Source: Gammaproteobacteria bacterium
GTDB taxonomy: Bacteria > Pseudomonadota > Gammaproteobacteria > Pseudomonadales > Pseudomonadaceae
Reading direction: 5' to 3'
Assembly (NCBI GenBank): GCA_023475025.1
Contig: JAMCWB010000032.1
Coordinates: 1 to 34,441 of the forward strand
Length of the DNA stretch: 34,441 nt
Below the pieces are notes generated by a model. The model was given only the letters and a program-made list of their open reading frames with translations. It searched no databases and had not been told where the DNA came from. Positions 14,779 through 18,209 of the stretch are shown one piece after another (within the stretch, counting starts at the first letter, position 1; the number at the start of each line of letters is the position of its first letter). The position numbers and the translations under genes are program-made.

Positions 14779-14903
14779 AGGGTGTATCTCAACTGAGGGA
14801 TGGTGAAAAGCCGGAAATTGTAGCAGAGACTGGGCAATACATGAATGGTCTTTATGTGCTGGCTTTTGTAAGATGTCAGGTCCGTTTTTCCCCGGAGGTG
14901 CCT

Positions 14904-15683
14904 GTGCTGGAAAGAATTCGCGTGGTTCTGGTCAATACCAGCCATCCCGGTAACATTGGTGCCGCTGCCCGGGCGATGAAAAATATGGGCCTGCAGCGCC
15001 TGGTGCTGGTGCAGCCGCGCCGTTTTCCGGATGGTGAAGCCAGCGCCCGGGCCTCGGGCGCTGACGATATCTTGCAGCAGGCGCAGGTAGTTGACTCGCT
15101 GCCTGAAGCGATTGCCGATTGCCAGCTGGTACTGGGTACCAGTGCGCGGGACAGAAAGATTCCCTGGCCGGTATTGGATCCGCGCGAAGCTGCGCAGACC
15201 AGTCTGGAGCATATACGTGATATGCCCGAGGGCGATGTGGCGCTGGTGTTTGGTCGCGAGGATTCGGGGCTGACCAGCGAGGAGTTGCAGCGCTGCCAGT
15301 ATCATATTCATATCCCGTCTGATCCGGCGTTCAGTTCGCTGAATCTGGCCGCTGCCGTGCAGGTGGTCTGTTATGAGCTGCGCATGCTCGGCTTGCAGTG
15401 GGCGCAACAGCCGACCAAACTGGAAAAAGCCGCCGTCAGTGCGCGTGAGCACGATATGCCGGTCAGCGTGGCGGATATGGAAAACTATTTTCAGCATCTG
15501 GAGCAGGTGCTGGTTGAAATCGGCTTTCACAACCCGCAGAAACCCCGACAGTTGATGCCGCGTTTGCGCCGGCTGTACAGCCGTTGCGGGCTGAACCGTA
15601 TGGAAATGAATATCCTGCGTGGCATCCTGACGGAAACCCAGAAAGCCATCGGTGTGAAATCTGCCGGTGCGCGGAGAGACTGA
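14904..15683 (+). CDS. trmJ: tRNA (cytidine/uridine-2'-O-)-methyltransferase TrmJ
   Basis: TrmJ is a SPOUT-family enzyme that methylates the ribose at position 32 of several tRNAs. The 259-aa protein begins [20 protein letters not shown]. It has the knot motifs [15 protein letters not shown] and [19 protein letters not shown], then a C-terminal helical extension. I chose the GTG at 14904 because CGGAGG stands about six bases upstream and relatives start at this residue. An in-frame ATG at 14841 would add 21 residues with no family match. cysE follows after two bases. Confidence 0.92.
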
Positions 15684-15685
15684 AT

Positions 15686-16489
15686 ATGCTCAAACGCATC
15701 AAAGAAGATATCGCCAGCGTTTTCCATCGTGACCCGGCTGCACGCAACACCTTTGAGGTGATTACCTGTTACCCGGGGCTGCATGCGGTCTGGTGGCATC
15801 ATCTGGCGCATGCGTTGTGGACGCGCAAGGCGTTCTGGTTGGCGCGCATAGTATCCAACTTTGCGCGCTGGACCACGGGTATCGAGATTCACCCGGGCGC
15901 CAAGATTGGTCGTCGCTTCTTTATTGATCACGGCATGGGTGTGGTCATCGGTGAAACCGCTGAAATCGGTGATGACGTGACCCTGTATCAGGGTGTGACC
16001 CTGGGTGGTACCAGCTGGAACAAGGGCAAGCGGCATCCGACACTGGAAGACGGTGTGGTGGTGGGTGCTGGTGCCAAGGTTTTAGGACCCTTTACCGTCG
16101 GCAAGAATGCCAAGATCGGCTCCAATGCCGTGGTGACCAAGGCTGTGCCGGCCGGCGCGACGGCGGTTGGTATTCCCGGGCGCATTATCGTGCGCGAGCC
16201 GCAGGCGGACGAGCAGGACCGCAAACGCCAGGCAATGGCAGAAAAACTTGGCTTTGACGCCTACGGCGTCGGCCAGGATATGCCGGACCCGGTAGCCAAG
16301 GCGATCGGTCAGATGCTGGATCATTTGCATGCCGTGGATAGCCGTATCGAAGGCATGTGCGGGGCGCTCAAGGAGCTGGGCAGTGATTATTGTGCCAAGG
16401 ACCTGCCGATGCTGGATGATCATGACTTCGAGTCACTCAAGGATGATGTGCCGGTAGCGGCCTCGGCAGCAACTGACAAACAGAACTGA
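15686..16489 (+). CDS. cysE: Serine O-acetyltransferase
   Basis: CysE acetylates L-serine with acetyl-CoA, the first committed step of cysteine synthesis. The 267-aa protein has an N-terminal helical region and then left-handed beta-helix hexapeptide repeats (about 65-170). Signature segments are [38 protein letters not shown] and [14 protein letters not shown]. The C-terminal extension beyond about residue 190 is longer than in E. coli and is typical of the Pseudomonas and Azotobacter isc-linked form. GGAGA precedes the ATG at 15686. It lies 2 nt after trmJ and 5 nt before the desulfurase, so cysteine production is coupled to cysteine desulfuration. Normally iscR would follow. Confidence 0.94.
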
Positions 16490-16494
16490 GTGAT

Positions 16495-17643
16495 ATGAAA
16501 AAACCGATTTATCTCGATTATGCGGCAACCACGCCGGTTGACCCGCGGGTTGCCGAGCAAATGGTTGCCTGCCTGACCATGGACGGCAATTTTGCCAATC
16601 CGGCCTCGCGTTCCCACCTTTATGGCTGGCAGGCCGAGGAAGCGGTTGAGCTGGGGCGGCGTCAGGTGGCTGATCTGGTCGGGGCTGATCCGCGCGAGAT
16701 TGTCTGGACTTCAGGGGCGACCGAATCCAATAACCTGGCGATCAAGGGCATAGCGCAGGCCGGACGTGAGCGTGGCCGTCACCTGGTCACCTCGGTCATT
16801 GAGCACAAGGCCGTACTCGACAGCTGTCAGCAACTTGAGCGTGAAGGCTTTGAGGTGACCTATCTGCGCCCGGATGCCGGTGGGGTCATTCAGCCGCAGC
16901 AATTGGCTGCGGCTCTGCGTGAAGATACCTTGCTGGTCTCTCTGATGCACGTGAACAACGAGATCGGCAGCATCAATGATATTGCCGCCCTGGGTGAGGT
17001 CGCTCACAGTCACGGCGTGCCTTTGCATGTCGATGCTGCCCAGTCAACCGGCAAGCTGCCGATTGATCTGCGCGCGCTGCCGGTTGACCTGATGTCCTTC
17101 AGTGCGCACAAGACCTATGGGCCAAAAGGGGTTGGTGCGCTCTATGTGCGGCGTTCGGCAGGCTTGCAGCTGCAGGCGCAGATTCATGGTGGCGGGCATG
17201 AGCGCGGCTTGCGCTCGGGTACCTTGCCCACCCATCAGATCGTTGGCATGGGGTCAGCCTTTGCCTTGGCCGGCAGTGAAATGGCTGCTGAAACGGTGCG
17301 TATTGCGCAATTGCGCGACCGCCTGCTGGCCGGCCTTGCCGACCTGCCCGGCGTCAGCCTGAATGGCAGTGCTGAGCAGCGGGTGCCACATAACCTCAAT
17401 CTGGCTTTTGCTGACGTGGATGGCGAGCTGCTGTTGCTGGCACTCAAGGATCTGGCCTTGTCGACCGGCTCGGCCTGCACCTCTGCTGCAGTCGAGCCGT
17501 CCTATGTGCTGCGCGGCATAGGTATCCCTGATGCGCTGGCACAGAGTTCGCTGCGGCTGTCATTGGGGCGCTTTACCGATGAGGCGGACGTTGACGCTGC
17601 GGTTGAGATTCTGCAGCGGGTGGTCAGCAAGCTGCGTCACTGA
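16495..17643 (+). CDS. iscS: Cysteine desulfurase, IscS-like, lacking the IscU-binding tail
   Basis: This PLP enzyme takes sulfur from cysteine as an enzyme persulfide. The 382-aa protein opens [20 protein letters not shown]. It has [10 protein letters not shown], the PLP lysine at 206 ([12 protein letters not shown]) and the catalytic Cys328 ([17 protein letters not shown]), at the same positions as in E. coli IscS. It ends at VVSKLRH. Usual IscS is about 404 aa and continues with a conserved tail (SPLWDMYKEGVDL-like) that contacts IscU. No frame after the stop encodes that tail, so this is not a simple frameshift. iscR, iscU, iscA, hscBA, fdx and iscX are all absent between this gene and ndk. 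A role in tRNA thiolation or general sulfur transfer is inferred. Confidence 0.88.
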
Positions 17644-17704
17644 TCTGCCGTCAGGCGTAGAGAAAACTTGCACCCTGTCGGCGCAGCCCTGTTACGTATT
17701 TGCC

Positions 17705-17733
17705 GTTAACCTGCGTATAATCCGCAGGTTAAC
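17705..17733 (+). promoter_or_regulatory. Inverted repeat centred on the ndk -10 box
   Basis: GTTAACCTGCG (17705-17715) and CGCAGGTTAAC (17723-17733) are perfect 11-bp reverse complements. The seven bases between them are TATAATC, a consensus -10. A weak -35 (TTACGT) stands 18 bases upstream. No T-run follows, so it is not a terminator. It looks like an operator for a dimeric repressor that would occlude the promoter of ndk. The regulator is unknown. Confidence 0.65.
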
Positions 17734-17777
17734 AAACTTATTTAACCCTTTGATCCACTTTATAGCCGGAGAACCCC

Positions 17778-18209
17778 ATGGCCGTAGAACGCACCCTGTC
17801 GATTATCAAGCCTGATGCCGTAGCCAAGAACGTGATTGGCCAGATCCTGAGCCGTTTTGAGAACGCCGGTCTGCGCGTGGTTGCCGCCAAGATGGTCCAA
17901 CTGTCGCAAGCCGATGCTGAAGGCTTCTATGCCGAGCACAAAGAGCGTCCTTTTTTCAAGGATCTGGTCGGCTTCATGACCTCAGGCCCGGTGGTTGTCC
18001 AGGTACTGGAAGGTGAAGGCGCGGTATTGAAAAACCGTGAGCTGATGGGTGCTACCAACCCGAAAGAAGCTGACGCCGGTACTATCCGTGCCGATTTTGC
18101 TGAATCTATCGACGCCAATGCGGTCCATGGTTCAGACTCAACGACGTCGGCCGCGCGTGAAGTCGCGTACTTCTTCGCTGAAACCGAGCTGTGCCCGCGC
18201 ACCCGCTAA
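17778..18209 (+). CDS. ndk: Nucleoside diphosphate kinase
   Basis: Ndk equalises nucleoside triphosphate pools by passing the gamma phosphate through a histidine. The 143-aa protein is normal length. It shows [18 protein letters not shown] at the start, the active-site NAVHGSDS (His118) and the closing [14 protein letters not shown] region. GGAG precedes the ATG at 17778. A promoter with a perfect flanking inverted repeat lies about 55 bases upstream. In Pseudomonas, ndk normally follows iscX at the end of the isc cluster. Here it keeps its place although the cluster is gone. Confidence 0.97.

Follow-up and report, generated by a model that had tools for sequence, protein, structure and literature searches.

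In many relatives of the pseudomonad studied here, the interval between cysE and ndk is filled by iscR-iscS-iscU-iscA-hscB-hscA-fdx-iscX. The window, by which we mean the whole stretch of 34,441 nucleotides that was analysed (contig JAMCWB010000032.1 of assembly GCA_023475025.1), carries one gene for an IscS-like cysteine desulfurase at this place. This arrangement raises the question of how Fe-S clusters are assembled in such a cell and which partners the remaining desulfurase serves, and it bears on how a single desulfurase divides its sulfur among Fe-S clusters, tRNA and cofactors. IscU competes with TusA for the one IscS of E. coli (PMC11446229); a genus with the IscU branch removed and the TusA branch kept is a ready comparison.

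A lone desulfurase gene between cysE and ndk

All genes of the interval lie on the plus strand. The conserved upstream neighbour trmJ (14841 to 15683), which has TrmJ counterparts upstream in many compared loci, is followed by cysE for serine O-acetyltransferase (15686 to 16489, ATG to stop; TIGR01172, 258.1 bits against a cut-off of 210.65). A junction of 5 bases (16490 to 16494), where Pseudomonas relatives such as L007, L014 and L017 have iscR, leads to the iscS-like gene (16495 to 17643, ATG to stop; 382 amino acids). A gap of 134 bases (17644 to 17777), at which relatives carry iscUA-hscBA-fdx-iscX, separates it from the conserved downstream neighbour ndk (17778 to 18209; NF001908, 220.2 bits against a cut-off of 155). 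Both spacings given in the preliminary description agree with these coordinates (16489 to 16495 and 17643 to 17778). Its central observation, a single desulfurase where relatives have an isc operon, also holds: tblastn at E ≤ 1e-8 with the proteins of a Pseudomonas isc operon (L016) found no IscR, IscU, IscA, HscB, HscA, Fdx or IscX within 4.1 kb around the window iscS (L084).

The flanks had been described as intact. The order is indeed present, with trmJ-cysE upstream and ndk-rlmN-pilF-rodZ-ispG-hisS downstream, and most of the names pass their NCBIfam cut-offs: RlmN (TIGR00048, 464.5 bits; cut-off 290), PilW/PilF (TIGR02521, 231.1; 154), IspG (NF001540, 536.7; 345) and HisS (TIGR00442, 502.4; 286.75). 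TrmJ lies above the subfamily cut-off of TIGR00050 and slightly below the equivalog cut-off (279.6 against 280). The names SuhB and RodZ are less secure, being top matches below their cut-offs (319 against 332 and 89.2 against 208).

Comparison of the locus across relatives showed that the arrangement is genus-wide and not peculiar to this genome. The order trmJ-cysE-iscS-ndk-rlmN, without any isc-operon match in between, was found in 29 of 30 genus loci, and the thirtieth (L111) stops at a contig edge. Among 78 loci from outside the genus, chosen by similarity to the window IscS, IscU adjoins IscS in 72 and is absent in six, and the Pseudomonas loci with IscU occupy the same trmJ-cysE place as the window iscS. 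The nearest named locus (L004, 92% identity) comes from a metagenome genome labelled Pseudomonas sp.

A SUF operon lies elsewhere in the genome

A profile search with PF01592 detected no IscU in the whole window genome, and IscU is absent from all 37 genus genomes. Since the 33 genomes that are at least 90% complete all lack it, missing data are ruled out as the source of the absence. A complete isc cluster elsewhere in the genome, which would make the window gene a paralogue, is ruled out by the same counts. The genus thus has no IscU scaffold in any of its 37 genomes, and HscA, HscB, Fdx and IscX are missing from around iscS. The proposal that another system such as SUF must supply the clusters was borne out on contig C59 of the window genome, which carries iscR-sufB-sufC-sufD-sufS-sufA-sufT-sufE, so that SufB, SufC, SufD, SufS and SufE are encoded in one operon; the genome has two SufBD proteins. 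IscR, SufB, SufC, SufD, SufS and SufT score above specific NCBIfam cut-offs, and SufA and SufE are top matches below theirs. Gene order was identical in all 16 genus genomes read out of the 37, the window genome included. The SufS of C59 (L003:5631-6872, minus strand) scores higher with the model for family 2A encapsulin cargo desulfurases (623.7 bits, below that model's cut-off of 800) than with the sufS model, whose cut-off it passes (574.8 bits).

Among 148 genomes of the family, sampled from 19 genera, SufBD was found in 19/19 genomes of this genus versus 0/129 others, and IscU in 0/19 versus 128/129, the sole miss being an 83% complete genome. Because only one of the 19 genera shows this swap from ISC to SUF, we infer that the window genus is Halopseudomonas. 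According to Lo Sciuto et al. (2024), ISC is the system of the large majority of Pseudomonadales, and Halopseudomonas and P. phragmitis lack it, having only a SUF system similar to SufABCDSET (PMC11559095). The swap itself is therefore already known and not new. The consulted part of that paper does not mention the orphan iscS between cysE and ndk, the loss of its tail or the residue changes described below.

The remaining desulfurase is an IscS without its C-terminal tail

The window protein aligns without gaps with residues 1-381 of E. coli IscS (1p3w), one residue short of its own end; the E. coli enzyme has 404 residues. It passes the group I IscS-subfamily model NF010611 (PRK14012; 593.5 bits against 548) and falls short of the IscS equivalog TIGR02006 (575.6 against 643.2), its match spanning positions 1-379 of the 402 in that profile. 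A mere SufS paralogue can be dismissed, as the protein scores 575.6 bits on the IscS model versus 159.9 on sufS, and SufS has a gene of its own on C59. The catalytic residues His104 and Cys328 and the PLP lysine Lys206 are retained in the window protein and in all 30 genus sequences. IscS was found in 36 of the 37 genus genomes; the one without it (G024) is 83% complete, and the copy in G004 is split over two contigs.

In the window, the protein ends ...RH followed by the stop codon (17635 to 17643), where tailed relatives continue with xxSPLWxM...GxDxxxxxW.... All 30 genus loci encode IscS of 382-384 residues, and the C-terminal IscU-docking tail is absent in each. In the E. coli complex, IscU touches IscS at helix 8 (Glu309-Ala316), at Glu347, at the end of helix 11 and along the C-terminal helix Arg379-Lys391 (Shi et al., 2010; PMC2854127). 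The missing tail is the segment that carries most of this docking helix. The same authors cite abolished IscU binding after deletion of IscS residues 376-404, although their table grades IscU binding by a tail-type deletion as 'Low' and not as none, and the tail mutants L386R and M389R still bind IscU (PMC2854127). With its catalytic residues intact, the window IscS would be expected to form a persulfide on Cys328; lacking the docking tail, it is predicted to be unable to bind IscU and probably supplies sulfur only for tRNA and cofactors. Our search found no paper treating tail loss in IscU-less IscS in its title or abstract, with most subscription journals outside the search; as far as the literature was searched, a tail-less IscS with an apparently narrowed set of partners is the new part of these observations.

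The tail accompanies IscU across Gammaproteobacteria

The 404-residue form of IscS is encoded in all 72 named loci in which IscU adjoins and in none of the six without IscU. Four of these six IscS end at 381-386 residues, and each of the other two carries an altered end of 19 residues; that of L075 keeps the motif SPxW. The whole genomes behind the six, for which completeness is not given, yielded no IscU (0/6), and both controls were positive (2/2).

A class sample of 274 genomes contains a close IscS (E ≤ 1e-110) in 166 and an IscU/SufU/NifU domain in 229. We compared the C termini of 149 IscS sequences from 146 of these genomes; 19 of the 165 IscS-bearing genomes other than our own were left out. 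To count as IscU-type, a protein had to reach E below 1e-36 in an open frame of less than 250 amino acids, a line that we set ourselves against SufU- and NifU-like matches. By this definition the tail is present in 120 of 121 IscS sequences from 118 IscU-bearing genomes; these tails bear SPxW and are 21-27 residues long (23 in 113 of them). The full tail occurs in one of 28 IscU-lacking genomes (G343), and six of the 28 retain the first tail residues (SPxW), as does L075. The apparent exceptions were followed up individually: in G197 IscU adjoins iscS, in G405 it lies at the edge of another contig, and in G343 there is none. The G343 locus (L296, G343:C212:6000-13500) carries iscR, a tailed iscS, iscA, hscBA, fdx and iscX with no iscU between iscS and iscA, which reflects either a real loss or an assembly fault. 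The single tail-less IscS from an IscU-bearing genome is a second copy in G380 (L294, G380:C42:1-5000) with no IscU match in 5 kb; the other copy in that genome is tailed and adjoins IscU, and the pair may stem from a duplication in which the copies divided the labour.

Sixteen IscU-lacking class loci (L278-L293) were viewed more widely, and in 12 of them a distant IscU-like protein (26-44% identity) lies near IscS; G303 carries a NifU-type protein. 'No canonical IscU' is therefore the accurate wording for these genomes, and tail loss does not always mean that a scaffold is absent. Within the Erwiniaceae, the scaffold module is missing beside iscR-iscS in two Pantoea (L036 and L075), whose genomes lack both IscU and the full tail; Mixta has both, which makes this a well-nested event. 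On a tree of 85 sequences from which the tail columns had been removed, IscU presence changes four times and the tail three times. The three supported independent pairs run on average 2.9 in the same direction and none in the opposite one, and three pairs cannot give a sign test of 0.05. The association between tail and IscU is thus very regular, and it rests on about three independent events.

Partner-contact residues

We compared the 30 genus sequences with 106 tail-bearing sequences (72 from named loci, 29 from class loci and five from family loci, many of them from close Pseudomonas), leaving out L004 and L005 as near-copies of genus loci. Residues that contact TusA or were mutated in E. 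coli (W45, E49, R55, D65, R220 and R237) are kept in all 30 genus sequences, and position 52 is Glu in all 30 and in 89 of the 106. At the IscU face, L333, present in 106 of 106 tail-bearing sequences, is Val in all 30 genus sequences. Mutation L333A in E. coli IscS lowers only the IscU-dependent modification s2C (Table 3 of PMC2854127). E309 is replaced by Asp in all 30, and E347 is retained in 11 of 30. S326, another IscU-specific position in the table of PMC2854127, is unaltered in the genus. K221 and R223 are altered in all 30 sequences.

For statistics we counted a position as changed when at least three of the 30 genus sequences differ at a site where at least 104 of 105 tail-bearing sequences share one residue, G343 being one of the 106 and excluded here. 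Among 155 near-invariant positions, IscU contacts changed at 5 of 11 versus 26 of 144 elsewhere (p 0.044), CyaY/IscX contacts at 4 of 8 versus 27 of 147 (p 0.051) and TusA contacts at 0 of 4 (p 0.58), each value being one of three uncorrected tests. The statistics of the residue pattern are marginal.

TusA-family proteins (PF01206, which also takes in TusA paralogues) were found in all 37 genus genomes. Of the 19 genus genomes in the family sample, 17 gave a strong ThiI match. The nearly complete genomes G006 and G013 gave only a weak ThiI-domain match (E about 1e-5 to 1e-4). The presence of the TusA and ThiI families and the retained TusA-contact residues would fit a putative role as a dedicated thiolation desulfurase. 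A point against the proposed change of partners is Phe89, the mutation of which in E. coli IscS lowers ThiI binding: it is invariant in the 106 tail-bearing sequences, yet the 30 genus loci (L084-L113) have Ala (29) or Ser (one) here although ThiI persists. A second such point is that CyaY (frataxin) is encoded in 29 of 37 genus genomes, although R223 is altered in all 30 sequences read. In E. coli CyaY binds and inhibits SufSE (PMC11446229), and by analogy such binding could explain its survival here. The window genome and its nearest relatives (G000, G020, G027 and G028) have no CyaY and share R225Q and E227Q in IscS; four other genus genomes without CyaY retain R225.

IscR-type sites

A site resembling an IscR type-1 operator starts 59-78 bases upstream of the suf-operon iscR in all 16 genomes read, with 2-4 mismatches of 25 to the E. 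coli consensus. In single-base shuffles of these upstream regions (200 each), the best sites had 5-7 mismatches (median 9-10). Three isc-linked iscR genes of Pseudomonas have an IscR-type site with 3-5 mismatches. In the window, the regions upstream of trmJ, cysE, iscS and ndk contain no such site (9-10 of 25 mismatches; best for iscS, 10). As matches to a consensus, these sites are candidate operators. With a site at the suf iscR and none in the window, IscR control appears to have been retained with Fe-S assembly, and iscS now stands behind cysE. In a free tree whose bootstrap had not settled, the SUF-linked iscR does not group with the old Pseudomonas iscR; a same-origin tree gave an AU p of 0.073.

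Discussion

We consider it likely that the scaffold module was lost in the ancestor of the genus, that Fe-S assembly passed to SUF, and that iscS was kept as a tail-less sulfur donor to TusA and ThiI. The genes iscU-iscA-hscBA-fdx-iscX, together with iscR, would have disappeared from the cysE-ndk interval, and assembly would have been taken over by iscR-sufBCDS-sufA-sufT-sufE elsewhere, under a putative IscR-type operator. The retained iscS would lie directly behind cysE without an IscR site. Cysteine made with CysE would be desulfurated by IscS, and the persulfide on Cys328 may be handed to TusA (for s2U in tRNA and for Moco) and to ThiI (for s4U and thiamine), with SufS-SufE presumably feeding SufBCD. 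With no IscU to serve, IscS would have lost the tail that carries most of the docking helix; several IscU- and IscX/CyaY-contact residues would have changed and the TusA contacts stayed fixed.

The preliminary description had called the event an internal loss, which the synteny with IscU-bearing Pseudomonas loci supports and the IscS tree leaves open to replacement. The whole isc operon, iscS included, could have been exchanged in one recombination for an iscS-ndk segment of a SUF-only gammaproteobacterium from the sea that already had a tail-less IscS. In the free tree, genus IscS groups with the tail-less IscS of Marinomonas, Parahaliea, OM182 and L083 and not with Pseudomonas (support 87/69), and in L015, L068 and L083 ndk begins about 160-190 bases past iscS, much as in the window. 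However, this support is weak and the branches are long, a clade of the genus with Pseudomonas is not rejected (AU p 0.294), and trmJ-cysE upstream is the same as in Pseudomonas; we regard replacement as unlikely. The loss of the tail might also be a neutral relic passed on by descent and uninformative on partner use, as the small number of independent changes (about three) and the tail start retained in six IscU-lacking genomes would allow. This reading seems distinctly unlikely to us, given that no independent pair runs the opposite way, that both IscU and the full tail disappeared in the two Pantoea and survive in Mixta, also of the Erwiniaceae, and that within G380 the copy away from IscU is the tail-less one and the copy beside it is tailed.

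The kept IscS might still contribute to Fe-S assembly, either as an additional sulfur source for SufE/SufBCD or by charging Fe-S proteins directly. We hold this to be very improbable, since the SUF operon encodes its own SufS and a SufE-like protein and the window IscS lacks the IscU dock. A precedent in its favour is Mycobacterium tuberculosis, which likewise combines a lone iscS from a shortened ISC operon with a full SUF system, and in which loss of iscS shifts SUF expression and the regulons governed by Fe-S transcription factors (PMC10848736). That lineage is distant, and its IscS has been linked to redox balance and to the expression of SUF (PMC10848736).

Under the favoured scheme of scaffold loss with a retained thiolation desulfurase, the window enzyme can be set beside two others. 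With E. coli IscS (1p3w, 3lvj-3lvm) it shares residues 1-381 without gaps and the catalytic and TusA-contact residues, and it differs in lacking the tail past 382 and in E309D, L333V, the altered R223 and other changes. In the SUF-only bacterium Bacillus, YrvO with MnmA is the desulfurase for tRNA thiolation, a NifS-like enzyme coupled directly to MnmA. YrvO resembles the window IscS as proposed here in being separate from Fe-S assembly; it is a different NifS-like enzyme, whereas the window IscS would be a former ISC hub that has apparently been narrowed.

Whether loss of IscU generally narrows the IscS hub to a thiolation-only enzyme, with the tail gone, the IscU, IscX and CyaY contacts drifting and the TusA face held, we judge to be evenly balanced. 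If it does, the tail would be a sequence marker across Gammaproteobacteria for an IscS that serves IscU, and hence a cheap test of partner use in unannotated genomes. The genus would then be a natural separation-of-function mutant. Halopseudomonas set against Pseudomonas also offers a natural contrast between SUF-only and ISC-only life.
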